Source: Mycobacterium sp. MS1601 (GTDB lineage Bacteria; Actinomycetota; Actinomycetes; Mycobacteriales; Mycobacteriaceae). Taken from it: a DNA stretch of 64,000 bases. Made by a program: the position numbers and the translations under genes. Shown one piece after another: positions 32,199-50,049 of this stretch; position 1 is the stretch's first letter, and each line of letters begins with the position of its first letter. The DNA is taken from assembly GCF_001984215.1 (NCBI RefSeq), contig NZ_CP019420.1, forward strand, positions 3,348,001 to 3,412,000, given 5' to 3'. The notes beneath the pieces are model-generated. The model had not been told where the DNA came from. It worked only from the letters and a program-made list of their open reading frames with translations, and searched no databases.

Positions 32199-32202
32199 GC
32201 GG

Positions 32203-32862: not shown

Positions 32863-32883
32863 CGCCGCGAAGCTGAGCGGGCC

Positions 32884-33579: not shown

Positions 33580-33697
33580 CTCATCACCTGCCTCCTTCAC
33601 AGAGAGCACCCGTGCGCGTGGGCCGGGCACCCCCTGTTAATACTCTAAGTCATGACACCCGAGAGAAAACAGACGAAAGGTATGTAAACTCCCATCC

Positions 33698-34654: not shown

Positions 34655-34827
34655 GGCCGGGTTGCGGGCTGCCTTCTTCACAGCCCGTGGACTTATTCCG
34701 GTGAGGTGGTGAGGGACTGCTCTCGCTGGCTTTCCTATGTTGTCCGGTTGAGCCTTTCGGGGGATGGTCAGGTGGTGACGGTCGCGGGTGGGCTGTAGCC
34801 GATAGTGTTGCCCCACAGGACAATCCA

Positions 34828-35070
34828 GTGAGTGTCCCAGGGGCGGTGGGCCACCGCCGCCACGCCGTCATCGAAGCCGTCTTCGTCGACGGACCCTTGG
34901 CCCACATGCCTGCGAGGCGCTTCGGCGCGAAATCGGCCTGGATCCTGTGCGCCGCGATCGCCCACAACCTGCTGCGCTCGGTCGGTGTGCTCGTCCGCGG
35001 CGGACACGCCGCGGCCCGCGGAGTCACCGCGGTTGTCTGCCGACCGTCGAAGCGCGGGGCGCTGATCTGA
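34828..35070 (+). mobile_element. IS1380-family transposase remnant (C-terminal fragment), left island edge
   Basis: The open frame reads GHRRHAVIEAVFVDGPLAHMP and AWILCAAIAHNLLRSVG, the characteristic C-terminal segment of IS1380-type DDE transposases. The rest of the transposase is missing upstream, so it is a dead fragment. A related fragment in the opposite orientation lies at 49425-49910. Confidence 0.72.
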
Positions 35071-35164
35071 GCGGGTTTGCTCAGCCGCCTCCGTGTTGCC
35101 GGTCGACGTCGACACAGTGTGGATGGCGGCTCCCATTGACGCCGGCGCCGGCGTGCGCCTAAGG

Positions 35165-35195
35165 TATGCGCACATTGTGGGCAAATGCCCGCATA
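35165..35195. promoter_or_regulatory. Inverted TATGCGNNCATT repeat upstream of the importer operon
   Basis: TATGCGCACATT (35165-35176) faces AATGCCCGCATA (35184-35195). Read on the opposite strand the second is TATGCGGGCATT, so ten of twelve positions agree across a 7-base spacer. It ends 19 bases before the GTG at 35214. The same half-site occurs at 45002. It is a candidate operator for the island IclR regulator. Confidence 0.5.
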
Positions 35196-35213
35196 GCGAG
35201 CAAAGGAACATTC

Positions 35214-36344
35214 GTGAACGTGATGCGTTGGGTCGCAAGCGCGGTGGCGTGCATGTCACTGGCCGCATGCTCTTCCGTGGGATCGGGGGCCACCAGCGTG
35301 GATGGTGCCGACTCGATGGATGTCGATGGGGCCCGCGAGGCATACACGGCCGCGCTGGCCGAGCCCGTATTCGAGGCGCCGGGGCCCGCCTTCGACGCCG
35401 CTGAGGCCACGGGAAAGCTCATTTTCAACATTCCCGCCTCGAGTTCCATCCCCTATCTCGAAGCGATGAACGAGAACATGGCGGACGTCGCCGAGCGAGT
35501 TGGCGTCCGCTACAAGTACTACGCCAACCAGGGCCAGCCGGACCAGTGGACCCAGGGCGTGCAGCAGGCGATCAACGAAAAGGCGGACGTCCTCGTCCTC
35601 AGCGGCGCCCCTGACCCGGCGCTGCTTCAGCCTCAGCTGAAGGAGGCGCGCGCGGCCGGAGTGAAGGTGATCGTCGCTTCCCTCTACCCGGACGGCACCG
35701 CGCTCCCGGACAATGTCGACGCGCTGGTTACGCTCCCCTCTGTCGAGCTACAGAGCCTCGTCACCGACTATGCGATAGCCAATTCCGGAGAATCGCTGAA
35801 CGCGCTGGTGTTGATCGCCTCCGAGTTCCCGTCGACCGGGCCGCTCCAAGAAGCGGTTGTCGCGGAGCTGGAAAAGCGGTGCGGCAACGCGTGCAAGTAC
35901 CGCGTGATCGACACCAAGCTCGCTGACTGGGCCACAAAAATCCCGACAAAGGTCCAATCGTCGCTTGCCGCGGACGCGGACATCAACTGGATCATCTCCA
36001 TCTACGACGGCATGGCACCCCCGGCCGCGTCCGGCATCGAGCAGGCCGGCCGTACCGGCAAGGTCCAGATCACGACCGGGGACGCATCGCTGGGGGTTCT
36101 CAGGAGCGTCGCCGACGGTGTTGTCGCCCAAGACGCCGGCTATTCATCGGATTGGATTGCGTGGGCGACCGTAGACCAGGCGCTGCGCATCCTCAGCGGA
36201 CAGCCCGCGCTCGCTACCGCAGGTCTCCCGATCCGGATGTTCGACAAAACCAATATCGATGCGGTCGGCAATCCGCCGGTCCAAGACCAGGGTTGGGGCG
36301 ACTCGTATGTCGATGGCTATCTCAAATTGTGGGGAATGGGATGA
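35214..36344 (+). CDS. Sugar-type ABC importer, lipid-anchored substrate-binding protein (RbsB-like)
   Basis: About 376 residues from GTG 35214, chosen because AAAGGA lies six bases upstream and the protein then opens with a short lipoprotein signal ending SLAACSS. The ATG at 35166 falls within the operator repeat. The mature part is a type-I periplasmic-binding fold of the ribose/LacI kind: LIFNIPASSSIPYLEAMNENM, then QQAINEKADVLVLSGAPDP, and a C-terminal half with IISIYDGMAPPAASGIEQAG. It captures the cluster 2 substrate, probably sugar-like or polyhydroxylated. Its stop overlaps the next ATG. Confidence 0.88.
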   Translation: MNVMRWVASAVACMSLAACSSVGSGATSVDGADSMDVDGAREAYTAALAEPVFEAPGPAFDAAEATGKLIFNIPASSSIPYLEAMNENMADVAERVGVRYKYYANQGQPDQWTQGVQQAINEKADVLVLSGAPDPALLQPQLKEARAAGVKVIVASLYPDGTALPDNVDALVTLPSVELQSLVTDYAIANSGESLNALVLIASEFPSTGPLQEAVVAELEKRCGNACKYRVIDTKLADWATKIPTKVQSSLAADADINWIISIYDGMAPPAASGIEQAGRTGKVQITTGDASLGVLRSVADGVVAQDAGYSSDWIAWATVDQALRILSGQPALATAGLPIRMFDKTNIDAVGNPPVQDQGWGDSYVDGYLKLWGMG

Positions 36345-37357
36345 AGGCGAAACAAGCTGAAGCTCCGCTTCGAGTAGGGATTCTGGGGTATGGGGCGCTG
36401 GCTCGCGCGGTAGCGCAGAACCTGCGAGAGCGCAGTGGACAGGTTTTGTTGACGGGTATCGCCAACCGCTCGGGCGGCCGCGACGCCGTCGGTGGCGATC
36501 TCCGCCGCGGAATCGCCGAGCTGCTTGCAACCGGCCCTGAGGTGGTGCTGATGGCCACCGCGCCGAAGATCGGGCTTCAGGAGGAGGCGCTGGCGGCCTG
36601 TGCCGCCGCAGGAGTTTCGGTAGTCAGCACCTGTGAGGAGCTGTCGTTCCCCACGGTGGAAACCGCTGCGGCGATCGACGCGCTGGACGCCCTGGCGCGT
36701 AAACATGCGATCGCCGTCACCGCGGCAGGAGTGAACCCGGGCTTCATCTTCGACTACGTGCCGGCGGTTTTTGCCGGCGGCCTGCCCCGAGTGGACGGTG
36801 TCCGTTGCCGTCGGGTTGTGGACATGGCGCCGTTCGATCCGCAGCGCCTGCGCGACGTCGGCCTGGGGCTGGCACTGAACGAGTTCGCCGACGCCGTCGA
36901 GCGCGGGCAGGTCAACGGCCATGTCGGATACATCCAGACCGGCCATTACCTCGCCTGGCGACTGGGTTGGCGTGAGGGTGTAGAAGTTGTCCAGACTTTC
37001 GAGCCGCACAGCTCCGGTGTACCGGTCACCGTCGGCGCCACCACCTTCGAACCCGGCCAGGTCATCCACGTAAACCAGGCGGCGAGCGTGCGCGTCCACG
37101 GGACGGAACGGATCAGGCTGGAGCTCGACCTGCATCTCGACCCCGCCGCGGGGGGACTGCCGGTCGTGGACGAGGTCTGCTTCACCGCCGAGGGACTCCC
37201 GGACACGCGGCTGACAGTCAGCCCGGGGCTTCCGGCCGCGCGTACCGGTGCCGCTGTGGCGGTGAACGCCCTGGCGTGGATCGCCGCAGCGGCGCCCGGT
37301 TACTACTCCCTGGCCGACTGGCACCCCGTATCGGTGTGGCCACGAGGCGAGGGATGA
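36341..37357 (+). CDS. DapB-like NAD(P)-dependent oxidoreductase
   Basis: 338 residues from ATG 36341, inside an ATGA overlap. The N-terminal Rossmann motif is RVGILGYGALARAVAQNL. VLMATAPKIGLQEEALAACAAAG and VTAAGVNPGFIFDYVPAVF are typical of dihydrodipicolinate-reductase-like and 2,4-diaminopentanoate-dehydrogenase-like proteins. It probably oxidises or reduces an amine, imine or hydroxyl group on the imported molecule. Finding such an enzyme inserted between the binding protein and ATPase of an importer is unusual and links it closely to uptake. Confidence 0.8.
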   Translation: MKAKQAEAPLRVGILGYGALARAVAQNLRERSGQVLLTGIANRSGGRDAVGGDLRRGIAELLATGPEVVLMATAPKIGLQEEALAACAAAGVSVVSTCEELSFPTVETAAAIDALDALARKHAIAVTAAGVNPGFIFDYVPAVFAGGLPRVDGVRCRRVVDMAPFDPQRLRDVGLGLALNEFADAVERGQVNGHVGYIQTGHYLAWRLGWREGVEVVQTFEPHSSGVPVTVGATTFEPGQVIHVNQAASVRVHGTERIRLELDLHLDPAAGGLPVVDEVCFTAEGLPDTRLTVSPGLPAARTGAAVAVNALAWIAAAAPGYYSLADWHPVSVWPRGEG

Positions 37358-38946
37358 TCGTGCCCACCAGGACGCACCCGCCCGGCGACGTCAGCCTCCA
37401 CGCAGCGAGTGTGAGCAAAACCTACGGCGCCAACCGCGTGGTCAGCGAGGCCTCGCTGCAGCTCAGGTCCGGAACGATCCACGCCCTGCTCGGTCCCAAC
37501 GGTTGTGGCAAGTCGACGTTGATCAAGATCCTCGCCGGGGTTGTCACGCCGGATTCGGGGGCGGTCATCGAGATAGGTGGCCACCCCGTCCAGACGCCAT
37601 TGCGGCCAGGGGAGGCGCGGTCACTTGGCCTTGCCTTTGTGCACCAGGACCTCGGACTGATTGATGGCCTGAGCGTTGCGGAGAACCTGCGGATGCCTTG
37701 GCTCATCGGAGCAGGTCTGTCGGTGTCGATGCGCCACGAGGTGCGTCGAGCCATGGCAAGCCTGGAACGTGCTGGCCTCCACATCAACCCGCGTGTCGAC
37801 GTGGCGAGCCTGTCGCGCTCGGAGCGGGCTCTCGTGGCCGTGGCGCGCAGCCTCGATCTGCTCGCGGAGAACAAGGAACAGCGAGGTGCGTCAGGCGTGC
37901 TGTTTCTCGACGAGACGACTGCTTTCCTTCCCCGTTCGGGGGCAGAGGCACTGTTCCGGACTGCCCGACAGTTCGCCGACGAGGGCGGGTCAGTTGTTTT
38001 CGTCTCCCACGACCTCGACGAGGCAATTGCGCACGCGGACGACATCACCGTGCTACGGGACGGCCAGGTCGTCGCGACCTGCCCGTCGACCGACGTCGAC
38101 CGTGACCAGCTGGTCCGCCTGATCGCCGGCCGCGACGTGAGCAGCCATTGTCGGCCGACCGGACCCATGTCGGAGACGGTGGCTCTCACGGTGACCGGCC
38201 TGTCTGGAGCCGCTGTCGAGCAGGTGTCCCTGACTGTCCGCGCCGGCGAGGTCGTGGGGCTGACCGGGATCATCGGCTCCGGGTACGACGACGTCCTCGA
38301 CCTGATTCATGGGGCAAAGGGCGCCAAGGCGGGCGAGATCGCGCTTGGCGACCGGCCGGCGTACGACGCCCGAGGGACAACGCCCGCACGCAGCGTGTCG
38401 TCCGGCATCGCCCTGGTCCCGGCCGACCGGCCGACCCAAGGGGTGGTTGCCGGTCTGACGATCGGCGAGAACATCCAGATGCAGAAGTTGGCGAGCCGGG
38501 GCAGGTCATGGTGGCTGCGCGTGGGAGCGGCTCGGAAGCAACAGGCGGCGACACTGCAGCGATTCGCCGTGCGGCCGCCTGTCCCGCACATGGCGATCGA
38601 GAACCTCAGCGGCGGCAACCAGCAGAAGGTGGTCCTGGGTAAGTGGCTCGAGGACGATCCTGCGGTGCTCCTCCTTCAAGAACCGACGCAGGGCGTCGAC
38701 ATCGGAGCACGAGCGGAGATCTACAGGCTGATCGAGGTAGCCACAAGCCAGGGGACGGCTGTCCTGCTGGCCAGCGCGGACCACGAGGAGCTCGCGCAGA
38801 TGTGCGACCGGGTCCTCGTCATGGAGCGCGGGCGCGTCAGCGCCGAGCTTGGCACGGCCGCGGCCACAAAGGCCTCGATCTCGGCCGCGTGCATGGGAAA
38901 ACTCATCGATTCCGCAGAGGAGAGTGGCCGTGTCAGTGCTGTCTGA
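37354..38946 (+). CDS. Sugar ABC importer ATPase with two ABC domains (RbsA/XylG-like)
   Basis: 530 residues from ATG 37354 in an ATGA overlap. Domain 1 has Walker A GPNGCGKSTLIKIL, signature LSRSERALVAV (not LSGGQ) and Walker B VLFLDETTAFL. Domain 2 has a degenerate Walker A (GIIGSGYDDVLDLI), a good signature LSGGNQQKVVLGKWL and LLLQEPTQGVDIGARAEIY. This split of canonical and degenerate motifs is normal for the ribose/xylose class. It energises import through the next gene's permease. Confidence 0.92.
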   Translation: MIVPTRTHPPGDVSLHAASVSKTYGANRVVSEASLQLRSGTIHALLGPNGCGKSTLIKILAGVVTPDSGAVIEIGGHPVQTPLRPGEARSLGLAFVHQDLGLIDGLSVAENLRMPWLIGAGLSVSMRHEVRRAMASLERAGLHINPRVDVASLSRSERALVAVARSLDLLAENKEQRGASGVLFLDETTAFLPRSGAEALFRTARQFADEGGSVVFVSHDLDEAIAHADDITVLRDGQVVATCPSTDVDRDQLVRLIAGRDVSSHCRPTGPMSETVALTVTGLSGAAVEQVSLTVRAGEVVGLTGIIGSGYDDVLDLIHGAKGAKAGEIALGDRPAYDARGTTPARSVSSGIALVPADRPTQGVVAGLTIGENIQMQKLASRGRSWWLRVGAARKQQAATLQRFAVRPPVPHMAIENLSGGNQQKVVLGKWLEDDPAVLLLQEPTQGVDIGARAEIYRLIEVATSQGTAVLLASADHEELAQMCDRVLVMERGRVSAELGTAAATKASISAACMGKLIDSAEESGRVSAV

Positions 38947-39958
38947 GAAGGAGACCCCTTCCGATACCGCGCCGGCGGCGCGACGCTCTCGAGCGGGCAG
39001 CGTCGACCTTGCCAACCGCTATGGGCTCCTGGTCGTGTGGGCGGCGGTCATCGTCTTCTTCGGCGTGCTGCGCCCGGACTCCTTTTTGACCTGGTCCAAC
39101 TTCGCCGCGATGTTCGGGTCCCAGGCAGCTCTGGTGGTGCTGAGCTCCGGTCTGCTGATCGCCCTACGCTGCGGCGACTACGACATGTCCATCGGTGGCG
39201 TCATGACGCTGTCGGCGATGACAGTAGCGGTACTGAATGCTCAGCACGGTGTGAACATCTGGGTCTGTGTGGCGCTCGCGGCCGCCATCGGCGTAACGGT
39301 AGGCCTGGTCAACGGCTTTGTCAGTGTCTTCTTCGACATCAACCCCTTCATCGTCACCCTCGGCACGGGCACGGTCTACACCGGTTTGGCACTGTGGCTG
39401 AGCGATTCGCAGACGATCAGCGGCGTCTCGACGGACCTGGTCAACGTGGTGATCGGGACGCGTTGGCTCGGAGTGCCGCTCGCGTTCTACTTCGGTCTGG
39501 GCGCCTGTTTGATCGTTCTTTACCTGTTCGAGCGGACGAGCCTTGGCAAGCGGATGCTGTTTGTCGGCAAGAGTCGGACGGTCGCCCATCTCAGCGGCAT
39601 CCGTGTCGACCGGGTCAGGGTCATTGGCTTTGCCCTGTCCGCGCTGTTCGCCGCCCTGGCCGGCGTGGTCTACGTCGGCACATTGGGGGGAGCGGACCCG
39701 ACGTCGGGCAGCAGTTACCTGATGCCCGCCTTTGCCGCAGCCTTCTTGGGTTCAGCCGCGATCAAACCCGGACTTTTCAACCCGATCGGCGCATTGATCG
39801 CGGTCTACTTCCTGGTCACTGGAATCTCGGGCCTCTCGATCCTGGGCTTTGCGAGCTTCGTCCAAGACCTCTTCTACGGTTCGGCCCTGGTGCTCGCAGT
39901 GGCACTTTCGCGACTGGTCGCCAAGCGTCGTGCACGTGTCGCCGCGGCTCGTGCCTGA
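38930..39958 (+). CDS. Sugar ABC importer permease (RbsC-like)
   Basis: 342 residues from GTG 38930, preceded by AGAGGAGAG and overlapping the ATPase gene. Eight to ten membrane helices are seen, with RbsC-family marks CGDYDMSIGGVMTLSAM, NPFIVTLGTGTVYTGLALWL and PTSGSSYLMPAFAAAFLGSAAI. It probably works as a homodimer with the dual ATPase. Only one permease and one ATPase gene are present, as usual for this class. Confidence 0.92.
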   Translation: MSVLSEKETPSDTAPAARRSRAGSVDLANRYGLLVVWAAVIVFFGVLRPDSFLTWSNFAAMFGSQAALVVLSSGLLIALRCGDYDMSIGGVMTLSAMTVAVLNAQHGVNIWVCVALAAAIGVTVGLVNGFVSVFFDINPFIVTLGTGTVYTGLALWLSDSQTISGVSTDLVNVVIGTRWLGVPLAFYFGLGACLIVLYLFERTSLGKRMLFVGKSRTVAHLSGIRVDRVRVIGFALSALFAALAGVVYVGTLGGADPTSGSSYLMPAFAAAFLGSAAIKPGLFNPIGALIAVYFLVTGISGLSILGFASFVQDLFYGSALVLAVALSRLVAKRRARVAAARA

Positions 39959-39989
39959 CCGACCACCCTCTCCTCGGAAGGAAATCCAG

Positions 39990-40898
39990 ATGAAGAAGAT
40001 CCAGGTGTGTGTGGGGGTCGACGTCGACTCCGTCGCAGGGTGGATCGGCAGCTACGGTGGCGAGGACTCGCCCGCGGACATCCAACGAGGTGTCTTCGCC
40101 GCCGAGGTCGGAATCCCGCGCATGCTTCGTCTCCTCGAGCGTCACTCGGTGCCGGCGACCTTCTTCATCCCCGGCCACTCCATCGAGTCGTTCCCGCGGG
40201 AGATGCAAATGGTGGCCGACGCCGGGCATGAGATCGGCGCCCACGGCTACACGCACGAGAACCCGACATCGCTGAGCCTGGAACAGGAGCGGGTGATCCT
40301 CGAGAAGTCCATCGAGCTCATCGACAGACTGTGCGGCCGGCCTCCCGTCGGCTATGTCGCGCCGTGGTTGGAGCTGTCCGAGAACACCATCGACCTGCTG
40401 GTGCGTAACGGGTTCTCCTACGATCACACGCAGCAGTTCGACGACTTCACGCCGTTCTATGCGCGCTCGGGTGACAGTTGGACTGCGATCGACTATGACC
40501 AAGCCGCGGAGTCGTGGATGAGGCCATACGTCAGCGGAGCCCCGGTCGACCTGGTGGTCCTCCCGCCGAACTGGTACCTCAGTGACTTCACGCCGATGGT
40601 GTTCATCAAGAAGATGAGCAACAGCCACGGCTGGGTCAGCCCGCGCTCGATCGAGCAGGACTGGAGAGACCAATTCGACTGGATCTACCGGGAGATGGAT
40701 TACGCCGTGTTCTCGCTGAACACGCACCCCGACGCGTCGGGGCGGCCGCAGATCGCGGCGATGCTGGAGCGGTTCATCCAGTACGTCGCCAGGCATCCGG
40801 GCGTCGAGTTCGTGACGATGGAGGCCGCGGCAGCGCAGTACCGACGCCGGGTGCCGTTCGACTCGGTTGCCCCGTCCCGGACGGAGCGCAACCAGTGA
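39990..40898 (+). CDS. NodB-fold polysaccharide deacetylase family protein (HpPgdA-like)
   Basis: 302 residues from ATG 39990 after GGAAGGAAA. It begins VGVDVDSVAGWIGSYGGEDS and has Asp13 plus H85-x3-H89 (AHGYTHE), the metal triad of NodB enzymes, with TFFIPGHSIE before it. No signal peptide is present, so it acts in the cytoplasm, more like the HpPgdA/allantoinase-type subgroup that hydrolyses small amides than a cell-wall enzyme. In the importer operon it may deacylate or ring-open the transported compound. Confidence 0.85.
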   Translation: MKKIQVCVGVDVDSVAGWIGSYGGEDSPADIQRGVFAAEVGIPRMLRLLERHSVPATFFIPGHSIESFPREMQMVADAGHEIGAHGYTHENPTSLSLEQERVILEKSIELIDRLCGRPPVGYVAPWLELSENTIDLLVRNGFSYDHTQQFDDFTPFYARSGDSWTAIDYDQAAESWMRPYVSGAPVDLVVLPPNWYLSDFTPMVFIKKMSNSHGWVSPRSIEQDWRDQFDWIYREMDYAVFSLNTHPDASGRPQIAAMLERFIQYVARHPGVEFVTMEAAAAQYRRRVPFDSVAPSRTERNQ

Positions 40899-41296
40899 AT
40901 GCCCCGTTGATCCCGGTCGACGCTGTGGAACTGCTCAGTGGTCTGAACTGCGGCGTGCTCTCCACAGCCGGAACCGGAGGACGCGTACAGTCATCGGTCG
41001 TCTGGGTGGCCCACGAGGCGGGGATTCCTGTGTTCAGTACGATCGAGGGACGTCTCAAGACCCGCAACATCCGGAGCAACCCGAACGTGTCCTTGCTGGT
41101 GCACGCGGTCGACAACCCGTATCGGTACCTGGAAGTGCGAGGCCGGGTGGATTTCTCGATCGACGATGACAACGCACTGATCAACAGTCTCGCGATGCGC
41201 TATCTGGGACAGCCTGTCTACACAGCCGACGCGACCGGAGCGAAACGCCTCAAAGGTGTGTTGCATCCGGAGAAGGTCGTTTGGAAGGCTGCGTGA
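40895..41296 (+). CDS. PPOX-class flavin (F420/FMN-dependent) protein
   Basis: 133 residues, a single pyridoxamine-phosphate-oxidase-like split beta-barrel: LNCGVLSTAGTGGRVQSSVVWV, STIEGRLKTRNIRSNPNVSLLV and YLEVRGRVDFS. In actinobacteria most such small proteins use F420 or FMN to reduce double bonds. The RTKxRNI-type stretch (RLKTRNI) contacts the cofactor phosphate. The start overlaps the deacetylase stop, so it belongs to the operon. Its partner substrate is unknown. Confidence 0.83.
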   Translation: MNAPLIPVDAVELLSGLNCGVLSTAGTGGRVQSSVVWVAHEAGIPVFSTIEGRLKTRNIRSNPNVSLLVHAVDNPYRYLEVRGRVDFSIDDDNALINSLAMRYLGQPVYTADATGAKRLKGVLHPEKVVWKAA

Positions 41297-41335
41297 CGCC
41301 CACACGGTCGAAGATCTAGTCAGGGGAGGTGCGAG

Positions 41336-42118
41336 TTGGACGACGACGTGCCGAGCTCATTGATTCAGTCGGTGGTGCGCGCTGCGTCCATCCTGGATCT
41401 GTTCACCCGGGAGCCGGGTGAGTGGACCGAGCAGGAGATCGTCCGGATGACCGGGCTGAACCGCGGAACTGTTTACCGGTTCTGCCAGTCCTTGGTGCAC
41501 GTCGGCTACCTCGAGGTGCTGCCCAGCGGGAAGTACCGGCCCGGAAGCAAGATGGTCGCTTTTGGCCAGATCGCGCTGCGTGGGCTGGTTCTCGCCGAAA
41601 TCGCCGAGCCGGTCCTTCGTCGCACTCGAGAGGCGCTGGGCACGACGATCAACATGTCGGTGCTCCGTGGGACGGATATCCAGTACATTCTGCGATTACG
41701 CGGTCCGAGCTTGCTCGATATCCGGTTGACCGTCGGAAGCACGCTGCCTGCCTATTGCTCCTCCCAAGGCCGGGCGATCCTGTCCCGACTCCCCGACGCC
41801 GAAGTCGACGCTGTGCTTGCTGCGTCCGATGTCGTCGCGAGGACGGCGAAGGGTGCAACATCGACCGCCGAGGTGTGGGAACGCATCCGCCAGGCACGCC
41901 AACTCGGCTATGCGGTGATTGATGAGGAAGTCGACGAGGGTATGCGGGGTGTCGCCGTCCCGGTGCTCGGCCCGGACGGCCGACCCGCGGCGGCGATCAA
42001 TGCCGCCTACGTCCGCGTCATCGAACGCGGAGAGATCGAGGACGTCATCGCGCCTCAGCTGCAGCAGGCGGCCAACGAGATCGAGTGCCTGATCCAGGCG
42101 CAACAGAACAGCCTCTGA
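41336..42118 (+). CDS. IclR-family regulator of the island
   Basis: 260 residues. The winged helix lies at ~10-75 (VRAASILDLFTREPGEWTEQEIVRMTGLNRGTVYRFCQSLV) and the effector domain at ~85-255 (TINMSVLRGTDIQYIL, LPAYCSSQGRAILSRL, YAVIDEEVDEGMRGVAVPVL). TTG 41336 follows GGGGAGG. IclR proteins control catabolic operons in response to a pathway compound. It follows the PPOX gene by 39 bases in the same direction, so it is likely expressed with its target operon and may recognise the TATGCG repeats. Confidence 0.88.
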   Translation: MDDDVPSSLIQSVVRAASILDLFTREPGEWTEQEIVRMTGLNRGTVYRFCQSLVHVGYLEVLPSGKYRPGSKMVAFGQIALRGLVLAEIAEPVLRRTREALGTTINMSVLRGTDIQYILRLRGPSLLDIRLTVGSTLPAYCSSQGRAILSRLPDAEVDAVLAASDVVARTAKGATSTAEVWERIRQARQLGYAVIDEEVDEGMRGVAVPVLGPDGRPAAAINAAYVRVIERGEIEDVIAPQLQQAANEIECLIQAQQNSL

Positions 42119-42438
42119 ACTCCGGTGATCGGGTGCCCGGAAACCGACTTCGCGGTGATTCCGGAAGGACCTGCTCCTAGCTGCGGCTTTTGGGAACCGG
42201 TGGTGGGCATCGGCTGTGCGGCGGGTGGGTTCCCTGCGCCGAGTTGAAAGGTGCGCAGGCCCTTAAGGTCGAAAGGCTCAGTAGCCCAGGCGATTTCCCC
42301 GTTTGCGCCGACCGGCGCCGAGAACACCAATCGCATGGTCTCTCGACATGTTGGACGAGGCTCGCAAGCTGTCGACCCGCCCGGACGTCTGTCGTAGTCG
42401 ACTGTCAACTCCTGAGTCATGTTCTGGACCCAGATCCG
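42119..42438. other. Gap of 320 bases between convergent IclR and MFS genes
   Basis: I see no convincing gene, RNA or strong terminator here. A minus-strand open frame through it has no recognisable motif and begins without a ribosome site. It may hold decayed sequence. Confidence 0.4.
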
Positions 42439-43812
42439 TCAAAGCCGTGGGCCGGGCTGGGGATCTTCACTAGAGGCAACACCGTGGTGGGGCCGGAGCG
42501 GCTCACTGAGAACCCGGCCCCGGGTTTCTGGCCCCAGCACGATCGCCAGCACCGTGATGAGTGCGAGGCCGCACAACAAAGCGGCGACAGCCCAGACTGT
42601 TCCGGTCACTTCCAGCAGGGTGAGGGATACGATCGGTGTGAGTCCACCAGCGAGGGATCCTCCTATGCTGTTGCCCAGAGCGGCCCCACTGTACCGGCTG
42701 CCGGTGTCGAAAAGCTCTGCGAAATAGGCTGCTTGAGCGCCGACCATCGCGCCGTGGCAGAGTGCCATCCCGATGATCAGGGCGATGGTGATCCACAGCA
42801 AGGACTCTGTGTTGATGAGCACGAAGAGCGGAAACGCAAACAGGCCAAGGCAACCGGCCCCGATCAGGTACACCGGGCGCCGACCGACCCGGTCGGACAG
42901 GGAGCCGAAGATCGGGATGGTGGCCAACTCGATCGTGACGGCAAGGACGAGGATCCAGAGGAGAGTCGAGCGATCCAGTCCGAGGGTTGTCGTCGCATAG
43001 ACGAGGACGAAGGTCTGAATCATGTAGGCGCCGCTGGTCTCCCCGACACGCGCGCCGATCGCGACGAACATCGACCGAGGGTTGTAGCGAATGGCTTGGA
43101 AGACAGGACTGCTTTTTTGCGGGCGCCGGTCGTGGGCGGTCTGAGCCTCTTGGAACAAAGGGGACTCGGATACTTGAAGGCGGATGTAGAGCCCGATGGC
43201 GAGCAGCGCGATCGAGAGAAGGAACGGGATCCGCCAGCCCCAGGACAGAAGCGCTTCGTCGGGGAGCATCGTCACGAGGGCAACAACGCCGGCGGAGAGC
43301 ACGAAGCCCGATGAGACACCGGACTGGCTGAGACCTGTGTAAAACCCGCGCTGCGAGTTCGGTGAATGCTCGGCAATAAGGGAAGTGGTGCCGCCCCATT
43401 CGCCTCCGACCGCGAACCCCTGGATGAAGCGCATCGTCACGAGAAGGATCGGGGCCCAGATGCCGGCGGTGTCGTAGGTGGGCAGAACGCCGATCAGCGT
43501 CGTGGCTGACCCCATCGTCACCAGGGTCACAATGAGCACGTTCTTACGTCCGAGACGGTCGCCGAAGTGGCCGAAGAAGATGCTGCCGAACGGCCGTGCG
43601 ATAAAACCCACTCCCCACGTACCGAATGCGGCGATGGTGCCGATCATGGGGGAGAGGTCGGGAAAGAACAGCACGTTGAACACGAGCGCGGCGGCGGTGC
43701 CGTACAGAAAGAAGTCGTAGTACTCGAGAGCGTTGGCGGTGGTGCCCGCCGCGGTGACCCGCCGGATCTCCGCTCGGGTCGAGGCCGTGGTCTGTGCGCT
43801 CGGCATACTCAT
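42439..43812 (-). CDS. MFS transporter, metabolite:H+ symporter (MHS, ProP/ShiA-like) family
   Basis: About 457 residues from ATG 43812, which follows AGAGAAG and overlaps the stop of the upstream gene. Twelve helices are seen. ANALEYYDFFLYGTAAALVFNVLFFP is the MHS N-terminal signature (EYYDF), RPFGSIFFGHFGDRLGRKNVL is the helix 2-3 loop and GFAVGGEWGG follows. The family takes up organic acids, shikimate, betaine or dicarboxylates with protons. Coupling to the Old Yellow Enzyme gene suggests uptake of its substrate or of a related acid. Confidence 0.9.
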   Translation of the reverse strand: MSMPSAQTTASTRAEIRRVTAAGTTANALEYYDFFLYGTAAALVFNVLFFPDLSPMIGTIAAFGTWGVGFIARPFGSIFFGHFGDRLGRKNVLIVTLVTMGSATTLIGVLPTYDTAGIWAPILLVTMRFIQGFAVGGEWGGTTSLIAEHSPNSQRGFYTGLSQSGVSSGFVLSAGVVALVTMLPDEALLSWGWRIPFLLSIALLAIGLYIRLQVSESPLFQEAQTAHDRRPQKSSPVFQAIRYNPRSMFVAIGARVGETSGAYMIQTFVLVYATTTLGLDRSTLLWILVLAVTIELATIPIFGSLSDRVGRRPVYLIGAGCLGLFAFPLFVLINTESLLWITIALIIGMALCHGAMVGAQAAYFAELFDTGSRYSGAALGNSIGGSLAGGLTPIVSLTLLEVTGTVWAVAALLCGLALITVLAIVLGPETRGRVLSEPLRPHHGVASSEDPQPGPRL

Positions 43813-44981
43813 GCTTCTCTCGTTGTCGGTGTGGCGCTCTTCGGTTCGGTGAAGTCGCTGTTTCCCCGTGGGCCAACGGCCCATTCGTACTGATCGGGGA
43901 AGGGGATACGCACTGCCCGCGACGCATTTCGTACCCAGTACGGCTCTTCCAGGAGCGCGCGGCCGACGAGGACCACATCTGCGTCTCCGGCGCCGACGAT
44001 GGACTCCGCATGTGTGGGATCGGTGATCTTGCCGACGGCGGACACGGCAGACCTACTGACGGCTTGTTTGATGTGCCTGGCGAACGGGACTTGGTAGCCC
44101 GGAAACACGTCGATGCGGGCCCCTTTGATGAGACCGCCGCTGGTCACGTCGATGAGGTCGACGCCGAGGGTGTCCAGCTCTTGTGCAAGGCGCGTTGCTT
44201 GCGTGAGGTCCCACGCGGGTTCGCCTCGGGGTGCCCAGTCGGTCGCGGACAGTCGGAAGAAGACGGGAAGCCCGCGAGGGAAGTTCTCTCGTACGCTTCG
44301 GAACACGTCGATGGCGAGCCTGGATCTGCCGGCGAAGTCGACACCGTAGGCGTCCGTGCGTGAATTGCTGGAGGGCGACAGGAACTGGTGGAGCAGATAC
44401 CCGTGCCCGCCGTGTATCTCGACGGCTTCGTATCCCGCGGCGGCTGCCCTGCGGGCTGCTGCGCCGAACTGTTCTGCGATGTCTGACATTTGCTCCACCG
44501 GTATTGCCTGAGCGCCCCAGACCGGATCGGAGACAGGCCCCAGCGGAGTCCATCCGCCCTGTTCCGGCAACAACCTTCGGCCGCGTGCCCGCCAGGGCAG
44601 GTCAGTTGATGCCTTCCGGCCCGCGTGCGCAAGTTGGATCGCCGGGACTGCGCCTGCCTCGCGGATGGCAGAGGAGAGGCGCCTCAGCGGCGCAATGTGG
44701 TGGTCGCTCCAGATTCCGAGGTCGCTCGGGGTGATACGAGCCTCCGGTGAGACCGCGGTGGCCTCGACGATTATGAGTCCGGCACCTCCGCAGGCACGTG
44801 TCATCAGATGCGCGAGATGCCAGTCAGTCGGCATTCCTGCGACGCCCCCGATTTCGCAGGCTGAGTACTGACACATCGGCGACATCCATACTCTGTTGCG
44901 CACGGCCACATCCCTGAGAACGATCTCGTCGAACAATCCAGGGCCCCCCGTGGGGGGGGCGTGCCGCGCATTCTTCGCCAA
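43809..44981 (-). CDS. Old Yellow Enzyme family NADH:flavin oxidoreductase (YqjM-like)
   Basis: 390 residues. The YqjM-type redox-tuning cysteine is Cys37 in MSPMCQYS. IQLAHAGRKAS, the His pair in VEIHGGHGYLLHQFLSP, and FFRLSATDW follow. VGKITDPTHAESIVGAGDADVVLVGRALLEEPYW binds the FMN phosphate. These enzymes reduce activated C=C bonds of enones, enals and nitro compounds with NAD(P)H. In the island it could saturate an unsaturated ring ketone before cleavage. It overlaps the MHS transporter gene and is transcribed with it. Confidence 0.92.
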   Translation of the reverse strand: MAKNARHAPPTGGPGLFDEIVLRDVAVRNRVWMSPMCQYSACEIGGVAGMPTDWHLAHLMTRACGGAGLIIVEATAVSPEARITPSDLGIWSDHHIAPLRRLSSAIREAGAVPAIQLAHAGRKASTDLPWRARGRRLLPEQGGWTPLGPVSDPVWGAQAIPVEQMSDIAEQFGAAARRAAAAGYEAVEIHGGHGYLLHQFLSPSSNSRTDAYGVDFAGRSRLAIDVFRSVRENFPRGLPVFFRLSATDWAPRGEPAWDLTQATRLAQELDTLGVDLIDVTSGGLIKGARIDVFPGYQVPFARHIKQAVSRSAVSAVGKITDPTHAESIVGAGDADVVLVGRALLEEPYWVRNASRAVRIPFPDQYEWAVGPRGNSDFTEPKSATPTTREA

Positions 44982-45001
44982 CTCGTTCTCCTTGCGCTCG
45001 T

Positions 45002-45023
45002 TATGCGAGCATTCGCTCGCATA
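45002..45023. promoter_or_regulatory. Perfect inverted repeat upstream of the Old Yellow Enzyme gene
   Basis: TATGCGAGC-ATTC-GCTCGCATA: two perfect 9-base arms 21 bases before the minus-strand ATG at 44981. The left arm read as TATGCGAGCATT matches the TATGCGNNCATT half-sites at 35165-35195. Likely operator of the MHS/OYE transcript. Confidence 0.6.
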
Positions 45024-45133
45024 GGGAACGGCTTTTTATACATCGCCCGCACAGTTTCTGTCCATGCCCCGAACAGTCGCGTTCCGGCTCACGTCGCACG
45101 CGGTGGTCACGGCTGCTGGACCTTTCAGGGCTC

Positions 45134-46378
45134 TCAGGCGTCGAATCGGCCCGACTCCAGTCGTGTCCGCAAGTCACTGAGAAAGCTGGCGGCGTCGGCG
45201 CCGTCGAGCAGCTGATGGTCGTAGGTCAGCGACAGGTAGACCATGCTCCGTATTGCAAGGGTCTCGCCGAGGTTGTCCGCACTGTCGGTCACGACCGGCC
45301 GTTTGACGACGGATCCGATCCCCAGAACCGCCACCTGTGGGTGGTTGATGATCGGTGTGTCGAACAGGGTGCCGCGGCTGCTGGTGTTGGTGATCGTGAA
45401 CGTGCCTCCGGTCAGCTCGTCGGTTTCCAGTGACCGGCTGCGTGCCCGTGCAGTCAGATCGTCGATCTTGCGGGCCAGTCCTGGCACCGAGAGGTTGCCG
45501 ACCTCGCGCACGACCGGCATGTAAAGCCCGGTCTCGGTGTCGACGGCAATCGCGATGTTCTGGTGGTTGTGCAGTACAACCTCGCCGGCGTGGAGGTCGA
45601 GCGAAGCGTTGAGCATGGGGTGGCTGGTCAGGGTGTCCGCAACGGCTTTGGTCACGAACGGCAGGAACGTCAGCTGAATGCCATGGCGCTCCAGGAATGC
45701 ATCCTCTGACTGCTCACACAACCGGGAGATGTTGGTGACGTCGACCTCGATGACAGTCGTCAGGGGCGCCGACGAACGCAGCGCTTCCATCATCTGAGTG
45801 GCGATCTCGCGGCGCCGGCGGCTCAGCTGCACGCGGCGTTCGGGACCGGTCACCCCGGGAGCGGGCGAGGGCGGTGCGGGCCGGCTGGGTGCGGCTGGGG
45901 CCGCCGTAGTCGTGGGGTTGTGCGCTGTGGCGGGTTGGATGGACCTCCCCGCCGCGGCGAGGACGTCCTGCTTGCGGACCCGTCCGTCGCGGCCGGTGCC
46001 AGTCAGGTCCGCGAGGGTGACGTTGTGCTCGGCCGCGAGCCGCCGGACGAGCGGGGTGTAGCGGAGCGCGCGGTAGGGGGAGGCCACGGCTGGCGCCAGC
46101 GGGTCGGGCGCGGTTTTGGCCGGCGCGGTGGTGTCCAGCTCAGGCTCGCCGACGATCGCGATGGGGTCCCCGACGGTGACCGTCGTGTCCTCCGCGGCGA
46201 GGATCTCCAACAGGATACCCGCAGTCGGGGAAGGGATTTCGGTGTCGACCTTGTCGGTGGACACTTCCACGAGCGGCTCGTCTACCGCGACGTGGTCGCC
46301 GACCGACTTCAGCCACCTCGCGATGGTGCCTTCGGTGACGGACTCGCCGAGGGTGGGCAAGACGACGGAATTGGACAC
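45134..46378 (-). CDS. 2-oxoacid dehydrogenase E2 component (dihydrolipoamide acyltransferase)
   Basis: 414 residues from GTG 46378, after AAGGAG. The lipoyl domain has the target Lys43 in VSTDKVDTE. A Pro/Ala/Thr linker with the E1/E3-binding domain follows (YTPLVRRLAAEHNVTLADLTGTGRDGRVRKQDV), then a second linker and the catalytic domain. The active site HxxxDG is in TYDHQLLDGADAA. It transfers an acyl group from lipoamide to CoA. The E1 genes diverge from it and no E3 gene is present, so the general lipoamide dehydrogenase must serve. Confidence 0.93.
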   Translation of the reverse strand: MSNSVVLPTLGESVTEGTIARWLKSVGDHVAVDEPLVEVSTDKVDTEIPSPTAGILLEILAAEDTTVTVGDPIAIVGEPELDTTAPAKTAPDPLAPAVASPYRALRYTPLVRRLAAEHNVTLADLTGTGRDGRVRKQDVLAAAGRSIQPATAHNPTTTAAPAAPSRPAPPSPAPGVTGPERRVQLSRRRREIATQMMEALRSSAPLTTVIEVDVTNISRLCEQSEDAFLERHGIQLTFLPFVTKAVADTLTSHPMLNASLDLHAGEVVLHNHQNIAIAVDTETGLYMPVVREVGNLSVPGLARKIDDLTARARSRSLETDELTGGTFTITNTSSRGTLFDTPIINHPQVAVLGIGSVVKRPVVTDSADNLGETLAIRSMVYLSLTYDHQLLDGADAASFLSDLRTRLESGRFDA

Positions 46379-46453
46379 GGTGCTCCTTCGGTGAGCGGCT
46401 TCGGCGGGCGAAACGGTTCCGCCGGCGTTGACCGGACGTTCCGCATGGTGCAC

Positions 46454-46482
46454 TATACGAGCACGTGACCACAATACGAGCA
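46454..46482. promoter_or_regulatory. Direct repeat ATACGAGCA in the divergent E2/E1 promoter region
   Basis: ATACGAGCA occurs at 46455-46463 and again at 46474-46482, 19 bases apart (about two helical turns). The first reads TATACGAGCA and resembles the TATGCGAGCA half-site at 45002. Located just before the E1alpha ribosome site, it could bind an island regulator. The match is partial, so this is tentative. Confidence 0.4.
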
Positions 46483-46493
46483 GGAGGCGGATC

Positions 46494-47498
46494 GTGACTA
46501 CCCCGCAGGCACACGTGCTGACCACCCCGGAGGTGGACCGCGCCTCGGACGTCGCGCTCTACCGGACGATGCTGCTGATCCGCGAGGTCGAAAGCGGGAT
46601 CGAACGAGTTCACCGACAGGGCCGAATCAACGGCTCGTTTCACTCCTCGCTGGGACAGGAGTCGGCTGCGGCGGGAGTGTGCGCCGCACTCGGCCCGGAC
46701 GACATCGTGACCAGCAACCACCGCGGCCACGGACATGCGATCGCCAAGGGCGTTACCGCCGACGCTGTCATCGGTGAGCTCTACAGGAAGACTCACGGAA
46801 CCACGGGCGGACGCGGCGCGTCGATGCACTTGCACGACCGGAGCGTGAACTTCTACGGCGAGTCCGCCATTGTCGGCGGTACCCTCCCGTGGGCGGCCGG
46901 CGCCGGCTGGGCGCGGCGGCGGCTGGGCAAGCCCGGGATCGCGGTGGCCTTCGCTGGCGACGGTGGCTTTGCCAATGGCGTCTTCTCCGAGACCATCCGC
47001 ACCGCGCGGCACTGGTCCGCGCCGTGCTTGTTCGTCTGCGAGAACAACGGCTGGGCGCACTCGATGTCGGCGGAGCGGGTCTTCGGACCTCCGGGCTCGA
47101 TCGCGCGCCAGGCCGCCGCGTCTGGTATCGAGGCGCGGTACGTCGACGGGCGCGACGTGCGTGACGTCTACGCCGTGGCCCAGGAACTCGTCGCGCTGGT
47201 GCGCACCGGTGTTCCGGCGTTCCTCGAGGTCGGGGTGTACCGGGTCCGACCGCACAGCTTGACCGACGCCGACTACATGTATCGCGGCAAACGGGACGGC
47301 GCCGATTGGCTCGATATGCACGACCCCTTGGCGCTCTTGCGGAGTCGGCTGCGTCCGGTCGAGGCCGAAGCGGTCGACGAAGAAGTCGCCGAGACCGTCC
47401 GGCAGGCGATCGAGAAGGGCGAGGCCGGCGCGGTACCGGCGGCCGAGACCGCAGAGATGTTCGTCTACAGCACGAAAGGTCTGCACTGGAATGCCTGA
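46494..47498 (+). CDS. 2-oxoacid dehydrogenase E1 component, alpha subunit
   Basis: 334 residues from GTG 46494, which follows AGGAGG. The thiamine diphosphate motif runs from AGDGGFANG (155-162) to ENNGWA (183-188). The substrate region GQESAAAGVCAAL and HRGHGHAIAKG is that of acetoin-dehydrogenase/pyruvate-dehydrogenase alpha subunits. It decarboxylates a 2-oxo acid or cleaves a 1,2-diketone-type substrate. It pairs with the beta subunit encoded next, which it overlaps by eight bases. Confidence 0.92.
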   Translation: MTTPQAHVLTTPEVDRASDVALYRTMLLIREVESGIERVHRQGRINGSFHSSLGQESAAAGVCAALGPDDIVTSNHRGHGHAIAKGVTADAVIGELYRKTHGTTGGRGASMHLHDRSVNFYGESAIVGGTLPWAAGAGWARRRLGKPGIAVAFAGDGGFANGVFSETIRTARHWSAPCLFVCENNGWAHSMSAERVFGPPGSIARQAAASGIEARYVDGRDVRDVYAVAQELVALVRTGVPAFLEVGVYRVRPHSLTDADYMYRGKRDGADWLDMHDPLALLRSRLRPVEAEAVDEEVAETVRQAIEKGEAGAVPAAETAEMFVYSTKGLHWNA

Positions 47499-48468
47499 AC
47501 TCAAATTCCTCGAGGCGATCCGTGAGGGAATGGCCGCGGAGATGGCAATCGACGAGAACGTCGTGATCATGGGCGAGGAAGTCGGTCAGCTCGGCGGCGT
47601 CTTCGCTGTCACCAAGGGGCTCATCGATCGGTTCGGCAGTGACCGGGTGATGGACTCGGTCCTGGCGGAGGGAGCGCTGACGGGGTTCGCCGTGGGGGTC
47701 GCGACGGAGGGAATGCGCCCGGTCGTAGAGATCATGTTCTCCGATTTCTCCACCCAGGCGATGGACCAGCTGTTCAACTTCGCGGCGAAGATTCACTACA
47801 TGAGCAACGGGCAGTTCAACGCGCCCATGGTCGTGCGCCTGCCGGGAGGTGCCGGGACCAACCACGGCCCGCAGCATTCGCAGAGCTTCGAGACGATCTA
47901 CGCACACATCCCAGGCCTGATCGTGGCGATGCCGAGCACTCCGTCCGACGCGTACTGGATGATGCGGCACGCCATCCGCACCGACGACCCCGTCATCTTC
48001 CTGGAGAACAAGTACCTCTACTTTCGCGCCGTAGAGGAGGTCGATGAGACCGAGGGATATCGGTCGATGGATGCGCGCGTAGTCCGGGCCGGCGACGACG
48101 TGACCATTGTCTCTGCCGGTCGCATGGTGCCGCGGGCGCTCGCGGCCGCAGAGCGGGCAGCCGCCGACGGCGTCCAGTGCGAGGTCGTCGACCTGCGATA
48201 TCTCTGGCCACTCGATTTCGAGACCGTCGCGCGCTCGGTGCGTCGGACCAACCGGCTCCTCATCGTCCACGAGGCCGTCGAGTTTTGCGGGTGGGGCGGC
48301 GAGGTGGCTTCTCGCGCAGCCGACCAGCTGCTCACCGACCTCGACGCACCGGTCCGGCGGGTGGGGTCCAAGCGCATCCCGATCCCCGTCGGCCAGCACC
48401 TGGAGGATCACGTGGTCCCGACCGAGGACCGCATTTACGCAGAGATCCGCGACATCGCGGCGTACTGA
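47491..48468 (+). CDS. 2-oxoacid dehydrogenase E1 component, beta subunit
   Basis: 325 residues, normal for the family: FLEAIREGMAAEMAIDENVVIMGEEVGQLGG at the start, RVMDSVLAEGALTGFAVGVA, and PVVEIMFSDFSTQAMDQLFNFAAK. RLPGGAGTNHGPQHSQS gives the conserved active-site histidine region. It forms the alpha2beta2 heterotetramer with the preceding gene product. Acetoin-type and branched-chain-type enzymes look alike here, so the oxo substrate remains open. Confidence 0.92.
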   Translation: MPELKFLEAIREGMAAEMAIDENVVIMGEEVGQLGGVFAVTKGLIDRFGSDRVMDSVLAEGALTGFAVGVATEGMRPVVEIMFSDFSTQAMDQLFNFAAKIHYMSNGQFNAPMVVRLPGGAGTNHGPQHSQSFETIYAHIPGLIVAMPSTPSDAYWMMRHAIRTDDPVIFLENKYLYFRAVEEVDETEGYRSMDARVVRAGDDVTIVSAGRMVPRALAAAERAAADGVQCEVVDLRYLWPLDFETVARSVRRTNRLLIVHEAVEFCGWGGEVASRAADQLLTDLDAPVRRVGSKRIPIPVGQHLEDHVVPTEDRIYAEIRDIAAY

Positions 48469-48496
48469 ACCACCGAAGATGAGGAGAACGAGTCAC

Positions 48497-49402
48497 GTGA
48501 TCGAACCGCAGTCCCTTTCCATCCCCAGCGACGGCGAGACCCTTTCCGCCGATCTCTATCTGCCCGACACCCCGGGGCCGCACCCGACGGTCGTGATGGC
48601 GGGTGGATGGTGCTATGTCAAAGAGCTCGCCCAGCCGACGTACGCGCGTGCCTTCGCGGAGGCTGGGCTCGCCGCGGTGGTGTTCGACTACCGTTGCTTC
48701 GGAGACAGCACCGGTGAGCCGCGTCAACACATCGACCCGGCTAAGCAGGTTGCCGACTACCGCAACACCATCACCTTCGCCGAGGGGCTCGACGCCGTCG
48801 ACGCGGAGCGCATCGGTGTCTGGGGAATCTCTTATAGCGGCGGGCACGTCCTCCAGGTCGGCGCAGAGGACAGCCGGGTGAAGGCACTGTGCGGCGTTGT
48901 CCCCGTCATCGACGGCTACCAGAACATGCGACTTGCCCACGGCACCATCGGCTTCCGGCGCTTCCAGCAGGCGTTGCTCGACATGCGGCGCGAGCAGTAC
49001 CGAACCGGCGAGGTGGGCTACATCGAACACCAGCCGGCACGTGAGGGAGATCTGTCGACCTGGCCCTTCCCGAGGAGCAAGGAAACCTTCCGCATGCTCA
49101 AGGATCGGGAGGCGCCGAACTACCTCGGACGGGCCACCTGGGAGTCCTCCGAGCTGCTGCTCGGCTATCACGTCGGCCCGTACCTCCGTCGCCTGGTCGG
49201 CAAGCCGGTCAAGCTGGTGATCGCAGAGGGTGACGACCACACCCACTGGGATCTCGCGGTCGACGCCTTCGGCCAGATCCCTGGAGAGGCAAAGGAGCTG
49301 ACCATCGTTCCCAAGTCCGATCATCTGACGCTGTACACCGATCGCCAGGCGCAGCAAGGGGTTGCTTCGGACATCGCTTCGTTCTTCAGCCGGAGTCTCT
49401 GA
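48497..49402 (+). CDS. Alpha/beta hydrolase (dienelactone hydrolase/acetyl-xylan-esterase-like)
   Basis: 301 residues from GTG 48497 after GAGGAG. The nucleophile elbow GISYSGGH is present. An acid-bearing VIAEGDDHTHWD and a late histidine in PKSDHLTLY complete the triad. The N-terminal strands (LSADLYLPDTPGPHPTVVMAGGW) match the S15/DLH-type group. It follows the E1beta gene by 28 bases. With a thiamine enzyme next door it may hydrolyse a diketone or lactone intermediate. It is the last intact gene before the right-hand transposase remnant. Confidence 0.82.
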   Translation: MIEPQSLSIPSDGETLSADLYLPDTPGPHPTVVMAGGWCYVKELAQPTYARAFAEAGLAAVVFDYRCFGDSTGEPRQHIDPAKQVADYRNTITFAEGLDAVDAERIGVWGISYSGGHVLQVGAEDSRVKALCGVVPVIDGYQNMRLAHGTIGFRRFQQALLDMRREQYRTGEVGYIEHQPAREGDLSTWPFPRSKETFRMLKDREAPNYLGRATWESSELLLGYHVGPYLRRLVGKPVKLVIAEGDDHTHWDLAVDAFGQIPGEAKELTIVPKSDHLTLYTDRQAQQGVASDIASFFSRSL

Positions 49403-49424
49403 CCACGTACCCGATGGAGAGGTC

Positions 49425-49910
49425 GGATGGCTCCGCGGACACGCCGACTGCGCGCAGCAGTGTGTGGGCGATCGCGGCGCACGGGATCCAGGCCGAAATC
49501 GCGCCGAAGCGTCCCGAGCGTATGTGGGTCGAGGGACCGTCGATGAACTCATCGGCGTCGGCTCACGCGAAATTGATTCCAGTACCCGGGTTTGTCCGAA
49601 AGTGAACTCCTGCAACAACGTTCCGATGGTCGAGGGCGCGGACACGCTGTCGAAAAGTGTCTCTATCTCGTCGCTGCGCAGCACGCCGAGGTTGTCGATA
49701 CTGTCCGCGCCCGCGCACATCCCTGCGATCACCGTGGTCAGCTTCGGAGACGGGTTGGCCGACCCGGACTTGATCCGAGGCTCGGCGCAAGGGACCTTCC
49801 CGGCCAACAGGTCAGACAACCCTGACTGGGTGGCCAGCATCATCACCCACGCGGTGCACTGCCACGAGATGATCGTCGTCGAACACCGCCGCCGCGGCGC
49901 CGACGTCATG
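49425..49910 (-). mobile_element. IS1380-family transposase remnant, right island edge
   Basis: On the minus strand, 49909-49590 reads an IS1380 N-terminal half (GANPSPK-like SANPSPKLTTVIAGMC, then GADSIDNLGVLRSDEI and STIGTLLQEFTFG). At about 49560-49430 a different frame reads FIDGPSTHIRSGRFGA and AWIPCAAIAHTLLRAVG, the C-terminal segment. The catalytic middle is gone and the frame is broken, so it is inactive. The C-terminal part closely matches the fragment at 34828-35070, but inverted. Confidence 0.78.
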
Positions 49911-50049
49911 CGACATCTACACCGGAAGTGCCTTTCCGAGCCCGGTTGATCAATTCTTAAGGAACATCAAACATCCCAGTTAGTTCAGAGGGCACTTTTT
50001 CTCAGTTCAACACCCCGAACCCACCGGCATTTCATCGGTGAATGGAGGC

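Follow-up and report, generated by a model that had tools for sequence, protein, structure and literature searches.

A catabolic gene island bounded by decayed IS1380-family sequences in the chromosome of Mycobacterium sp. MS1601

We analyzed a stretch of 64,000 nt of Mycobacterium sp. MS1601 (NZ_CP019420.1), hereafter the window, in which a block of transport, catabolic and regulatory genes is bordered on both sides by fragments of an insertion sequence (IS). Coordinates without further label are positions in the window. The block is a real island, an insertion bounded by IS1380-family sequences, and represents a familiar kind of event. The insertion was probably acquired, and it is likely that the block entered as, or at, an IS1380-family element. 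A first-pass annotation, made from the sequence alone, had proposed an island acquired by, or rearranged between, two IS copies that decayed afterwards. None of the genomes examined carried the same genes in place without IS fragments, the arrangement that it had named as contrary to this proposal.

The block lies between two convergent genes, a flavoprotein-like gene on the left (33698..34654, +) and a GAF-GGDEF-EAL gene on the right (50050..51903, −), both of which are conserved neighbours of the empty site. The flavoprotein-like protein gave no Pfam match, and its label is a reading of its sequence. A total of 20 relative loci with the GGDEF/EAL gene (13 + 7) were all tested with all 13 block genes. 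Flavoprotein homologs (31-62% identical) were present at the site in 14 of the 20, where the flavoprotein and GGDEF/EAL matches were 16-123 bp apart, and the cargo was found in none of the 20 loci. The block-gene matches in these loci (E 1e-6) were an OYE-type protein in L046 (30% identical, ~14 kb off) and, in L048, L050 and L051, paralogs of E1 alpha and beta (27-44%). The closest relative examined (G099) is among the 14 with an empty site. Its GGDEF/EAL protein, ClpB and flavoprotein are 93%, 98% and 62% identical to those of MS1601, and the DNA identity is 72-86% in the longer matched flanking segments and 87% over 523 bp within the right-flank gene. In G099 the two stop codons are separated by 4 bp (GGCG), compared with 15,395 bp in MS1601.

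The comparison was extended across the genus, as the first-pass annotation had suggested. The DNA of the block (35100-49402) was compared with 395 other genomes (E 1e-50), of which one or two candidate stretches each were scored. No match was found in 374 of them, and in the remaining 21 the match was confined to the deacetylase gene (67-73%). The 396 genomes are a sample of a larger group, and closer relatives may exist beyond it. A search with the right border (48400-50600) returned, after the own genome and among the matches listed, only GGDEF/EAL-part matches (up to 87%). The block is absent at the same site from the relatives examined, as is typical of a genomic island.

The borders were identified in several ways. 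A degenerate motif search detected exactly two transposase-motif matches in the window, at 34936-34965 (+) and 49464-49493 (−), and none in 100 shuffles. The sole inverted repeat of at least 30 nt in 33000-51500 (seed 12, minimum 30) has its arms at 34882-34989 and 49440-49547 (108 nt, 83% complementary), separated by 14,450 nt. These results agree with the earlier report of transposase C-terminal segments at both block ends on opposite strands. The genome (6.83 Mb on 6 contigs) also contains two intact copies of a related IS1380 element, which share 1670 bp at 99.94% identity in BLAST. Their transposase has 484 residues and a Pfam DDE_Tnp_1_4 domain (E 6.7e-29). The element extends from CCTCGATCC to GGATCGAGG (L006 3226-4886, 1661 bp), with CCTCGATCC terminal inverted repeats and the 5-bp target repeats CTTAG and TTTAG; the right end was checked in one copy. 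The DDE_Tnp_1_4 transposase and the terminal inverted and short target repeats place the intact copies in the IS1380 family.

When the whole genome was searched with the intact transposase (E 0.001), the two intact copies and four fragments were detected, and all four fragments were located at the block borders: 34774-34851 (−, E 1.6e-4), 34819-35028 (+, E 2.9e-20), 49425-49550 (−, E 8.2e-10) and 49559-49852 (−, E 1.1e-34). The four are the only decayed IS1380 pieces found in the genome at this threshold, in agreement with the earlier description of decayed fragments. Neither an intact transposase nor both ends of an element were found at either border; ~735 bp are gone on the right, and the left remnant is chimeric with no identifiable left end. 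The right remnant matched 46 plasmid records, of which 25 carry the name Rhodococcus and 11 Mycobacterium or Mycolicibacterium; many were labelled IS1380 family transposase at the match. Apart from three 38-bp matches (95%), the identity was 67-78%. Of the 396 genus genomes, 162 had some match to this remnant, in many cases a short one. Judged by homology, the border sequences are IS1380-family transposase remnants, as the first-pass annotation had also concluded.

The intact copies (L006:3226-4886 and L005; G000 C1 ~5.72 Mb and C3 ~11-13 kb) are placed one on the main contig and the other on a separate 191-kb contig, and their single mismatch falls within the 5-bp target repeat. Near-identical copies on two contigs suggest recent transposition between replicons.

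The two remnants differ in structure. Element coordinates, in which 1 is the 5' end, were computed from L006 positions. The right remnant consists of a 5' part (49562..50048, −; element 1 to ~472), including the terminal repeat CCTCCATTCACCGATGAAAT, and a C-terminal segment (49410..49561, −; element ~1207-1364). Both read leftwards, and the ~735 bp between them are deleted. Its outer end is exact, since CCTCCATTCACCGATGAAAT equals the intact end at 17/20 positions (counted by eye). The 5-mer CTCAG (50049..50053) abuts the element 5' end at the GGDEF/EAL stop codon. Its counterparts are GTTAG in the closest relative and CTTAG and TTTAG at the intact copies; CTCAG resembles the 5-bp target repeats of the latter. 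The sequence CTCAGTTC occurs at 50001-50008, within the right IS end, and again 48 bp further on, at 50049-50056, just beyond it, which may be due to chance. The 5' part is 71-76% identical to the reference elements and the C-terminal segment up to 85%. This strong divergence indicates that the event is old, and yet the insertion is absent from G099.

On the left, the stretch directly after the flavoprotein stop (34655..34700) contains no recognised IS sequence and has no significant similarity to IS ends. It is followed by piece A (34701..34850, −), a 3'-terminal part including the transposase C-terminus (element ~1445-1580), and by piece B (34851..35030, +), an inverted C-terminal transposase segment (element ~1181-1369) within which the left arm of the inverted repeat falls. 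The left remnant is thus chimeric, with A and B fused in opposite orientations at 34850/34851, on a short palindrome GGCGGTGGGCCACCGCC. The fragments were present where the first-pass annotation had placed them, but the right remnant is larger, extending to 50048, and the left one holds a second, opposite piece. In all 19 reference loci with both parts matched, several of them near-identical and thus not independent, piece A was oriented as the right remnant. Since piece A is a 3' part and the right remnant a 5' end, the outermost sequences are arranged like those of a single unit in direct orientation. The segment corresponding to L006 3560-3665 is present on both sides, so there were at least two copies, or a piece was duplicated. 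A once-identical IS pair appears unsupported at the sequence level: the segments are 83% identical, no closer to each other than to some other IS1380 copies.

Based on these structures, we suggest the following history. A lineage-specific insertion of 15.4 kb (34655-50048) would have entered the short convergent intergenic site between the flavoprotein-like and GGDEF/EAL genes. It would have entered as or at an IS1380 element with its 5' end at 50048 and reading in the direction of the cargo, which adjoins the 3' side of the right remnant. Most likely, two copies in the same orientation framed the cargo, with the left copy turning its 3' end outward and the right copy its 5' end, a geometry as in a direct composite transposon or in an IS1380 'transposable module' formed on the 3' side. 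A later inversion inside the left copy would have produced the apparent inverted repeat. Both copies would have lost their inner ends, and mobility would have been lost, while the reading frames of the cargo stayed open. An in-place inversion within the left copy could explain pieces A and B by one event; we infer it rather than observe it, because the sequence beyond piece B has no significant IS similarity. Regarding acquisition by, or rearrangement between, two IS copies, the insertion and its IS borders were upheld. A simple inverted pair was not, since piece A matches the orientation of the right remnant, and two direct copies, followed by an internal inversion, would fit at least as well.

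Several observations weigh against this history. No target-site duplication was found, and no left terminal repeat. The left border was aligned to the IS ends of 18 loci, of which two belong to this genome and four are near-identical to each other, and again to those of 6 of these loci; in addition, shuffle tests (500 shuffles per element) compared 6 elements with three stretches, one of which was tested in both orientations. In the stretch beyond piece B (35031-35222), where the inversion is predicted to end, no IS similarity was significant (lowest p 0.09), and this end was not seen. The right segment is 84.6% identical over 104 bp to a copy in another genome (L056), compared with 83% to the left segment, so the two remnants need not have been one element type. 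The identities of piece A, piece B and the right remnant to the reference elements were compatible with one type or with more than one. The G+C content of the block is 65.4%, against 65.9% and 67.0% in the flanks; the distinct base composition of many genomic islands was therefore not found, and there is no compositional sign of foreign origin. The site is unreadable in the six of 20 loci that lack a flavoprotein match beside the GGDEF/EAL gene (L028 and L032, possibly other loci of the genome; L033, whose sequence ends at a nearby contig end; and L048, L050 and L051). Finally, the stretch between pyrE and the flavoprotein gene is itself variable; G099 lacks the PAS gene and two TetR genes found there in MS1601, and its pyrE adjoins the flavoprotein gene.

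A left IS end at the 3' end of the flavoprotein gene, as placed by MAFFT, was dropped, for the IS-free closest relative has closely similar sequence there. The 5-mers at the outer ends are CTCAG on the right and GCTAG at the stop codon of the left gene, the latter being only suggestive of a target-site duplication.

Entry as or at an IS1380 element overlaps with two rival explanations, which differ from it in route or original orientation. In a Campbell-type integration, a circle with the cargo and one IS1380 copy would have recombined with a resident IS, and the two direct copies would then have decayed. This route is possible but doubtful. It needs no composite transposition and yields the same direct-copy geometry, and it is compatible with the plasmid records matching the right remnant and with the intact copy on the 191-kb contig. 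However, no plasmid record contained 80% of either cargo half (the best 10 of 538 and the best 10 of 326 records cover at most 15%), and none of the 13 block genes matched plasmid-maintenance families. The composite-transposon or module account is preferred over recombination into a resident IS with the same end geometry.

The second rival, a classical inverted composite transposon with the left copy in (+), the right copy in (−) and piece A from a third copy, is unlikely. It is true that piece B is inverted relative to the right C-terminal segment and that the two alignments stop at near-equal inner element positions (~1369 and ~1364). This origin nevertheless requires a third IS fragment fused directly to piece B, and, as judged by eye, the coincident inner ends may mark no more than the fading-out of the alignments within a variable transposase region.

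Old vertical inheritance with loss of the block in relatives would be in line with the strong divergence of the remnants, which shows that the insertion is not recent, but it is very improbable given that none of the 395 other genus genomes matches the block beyond the deacetylase gene at E 1e-50 and that the tight convergent gene pair in 14 of 20 loci would need repeated clean losses. A chance placement of unrelated IS scars on either side of native genes is scarcely credible, common as IS1380-like elements are in the genus, because the only decayed fragments found in 6.83 Mb sit at both borders of lineage-specific DNA.

Judged by protein family, the 13 genes of the block agree with the earlier statement that everything between the borders is transport, catabolism and regulation. 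The left operon (+) encodes a sugar-type ABC substrate-binding protein (Peripla_BP_4; 35223..36344, open reading frame (ORF) from 35166, start by eye), a DAP_DH_C or native amine dehydrogenase-like oxidoreductase (36221..37357, the open frame as searched, with the true start later), a sugar-type ABC transporter ATPase (RbsA/AraG-like; 37354..38946, ORF from 37276), an ABC transporter permease (BPD_transp_2; 38921..39958, ORF from 38849), a polysaccharide deacetylase or PuuE-like enzyme (39990..40898, closest solved chain 3qbu), a PNPOx-fold protein (40895..41296) and an IclR-type regulator (41336..42118). The right group comprises, on the (−) strand, an MFS metabolite:H+ symporter (42439..43884), an OYE-type NADH:flavin oxidoreductase (43809..44981) and a 2-oxoacid dehydrogenase E2 (lipoyl acyltransferase; 45134..46525, ORF start uncertain). 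On the (+) strand it comprises 2-oxoacid dehydrogenase E1 alpha (46428..47498, ORF start uncertain) and E1 beta (47491..48468), and an alpha/beta hydrolase (48494..49402) that ends directly before the right IS remnant. In an NCBIfam scan of ten of the proteins, only E2 (SucB_Actino) and E1 beta (a subfamily model) reached the curated cut-off among the matches listed, and therefore no substrates were assigned.

The cargo is unusual, and the operon with the amine-dehydrogenase-like gene is rare. The DAP_DH_C protein matched the PDB chains 6g1h (E 2.6e-33) and 6g1m (E 3.8e-33), which we take to be native amine dehydrogenases in which one glutamate of an EE stretch is catalytic; both glutamates of this stretch are kept in the cargo protein. 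A database search (7,996 candidates scored) gave 171 matches including the protein itself, 120 of them listed. The best-scoring others were 33-36% identical, none of the 119 others listed exceeded 39%, and the best-scoring other match within the genus was 33% identical. The substrate-binding protein had 78 other homologs (E 1e-3, 7,998 candidates scored), the best at 59%. This homolog and a deacetylase homolog (72%) both lie on metagenomic contigs that are 13,945 bp long and share their source; probably they are one and the same contig, which would carry a relative of the operon. Other homologs of the deacetylase and the transporter are on metagenomic contigs of 14,125 and 14,331 bp.

No relative of the operon was found when the genome contigs were scanned with the amine-dehydrogenase-like protein. 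A deacetylase scan (10-row alignment) confirmed 252 places, of which 80 loci were kept. Six of the 80 contained at least three block-gene homologs including the deacetylase, the others being 24-36% identical. In four loci (L134, L146, L155 and L162) genes for a sugar-type ABC ATPase and permease (24-36% identical) lie within ~2-5 kb of the deacetylase gene, a partial echo of the operon that hints at a recurring transporter-deacetylase pairing. The deacetylase homologs of these four are 59-61% identical and occur in other taxa. None of the 80 loci contained the amine-dehydrogenase-like or the substrate-binding protein (E 1e-10). Seven further deacetylase loci gave one weak ATPase match (26-30%), and eleven amine-dehydrogenase-like loci of the genus gave three weak matches (26-28%), two to the ATPase and one to the OYE-type protein. 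In plasmids, the amine-dehydrogenase-like protein matched 8 records at 25-32%, and the alpha/beta hydrolase reached 48% among the best 20 of 3533 records. A second insertion site of the block was not found in the plasmid records and genus genomes searched, and the literature listings searched contain no account of the island. In a paper on the Mycolicibacterium mobilome (PMC8190616), a term search of the main text did not find IS1380.

Very tentatively, the left operon might encode an undescribed catabolic pathway for an imported N-acylated or cyclic-imide compound, whose amide would be opened and whose amine would be oxidatively deaminated. If true, this would give a native-amine-dehydrogenase-like enzyme a physiological context. 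For at least one group of the native-amine-dehydrogenase family, conserved-context analysis gave no clear metabolic function (PMC11164908, in excerpt).

The surroundings of the block also bear on its placement. It had been suggested that the block contributes to separating two genes, pyrE and Rv0381c, that would adjoin in M. tuberculosis. The block does add to the separation, but relatives without the block already have flavoprotein, GGDEF/EAL and ThiF-domain genes after pyrE. Between pyrE and the flavoprotein gene, a PAS-domain gene and two TetR genes (31782-33630) are present here and in some relatives. A protein of 825 residues with ThiF and nitroreductase domains (51915-54392) is encoded beside the GGDEF/EAL gene, as in several relatives. 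Integration at a tRNA site was not indicated, the sole tRNA call in the window being at 56.8 kb. This ARAGORN call, a tRNA-Gly with the unusual anticodon ACC (56819-56899), lies inside a SpoU methylase frame (56339-56992) and is probably false.

The island, with its clear borders, is an example of catabolic genes located at IS1380 sequence in the chromosome of a mycobacterium, and a near relative still has the empty site. The reading frames of the cargo are open although the IS has decayed, which suggests that the genes were retained once mobility had been lost. The operon with the amine-dehydrogenase-like gene offers a genomic context for an enzyme family with a poorly known natural role. The event itself is ordinary and the cargo partly unusual; its interest to specialists is modest and lies chiefly in this rare cargo.

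Among known systems, the IS1380 family includes IS1247, with 1672 bp and 5-bp repeats (PMC3281130, in part). The intact copies of MS1601 resemble this family in length (1661 bp), DDE_Tnp_1_4 transposase, CCTCGATCC terminal repeats and 5-bp target repeats, whereas the copies at the block borders are truncated and rearranged. ISPme1, of the same family, mobilises DNA adjoining its 3' end, and ISEcp1 forms similar transposable modules (TMos) (both PMC9330008, in part). As in these modules, the cargo of MS1601 adjoins the 3' side of the right-hand IS. In contrast to a TMo, in which a single IS mobilises the 3'-adjacent DNA, IS pieces are found here at both ends, and mobility of the block is putative.

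Tn6097 is a composite transposon between two copies of ISPfe2, of the IS1634 family (PMC3281130, in part). Like composite transposons of this type, the island has cargo absent from the relatives examined and framed by two IS pieces of one family. Unlike them, its copies are decayed and rearranged, 83% identical where shared, and no target repeats were found. With regard to the cargo, the best-scoring homologs of the DAP_DH_C protein are only 33-36% identical, in which it differs from the native amine and 2,4-diaminopentanoate dehydrogenases (PF19328; 6g1h, 6g1m), and an activity of their kind is putative. It nevertheless aligns with these enzymes over ~320 residues, and has EELSFP where they have EEMAFP.

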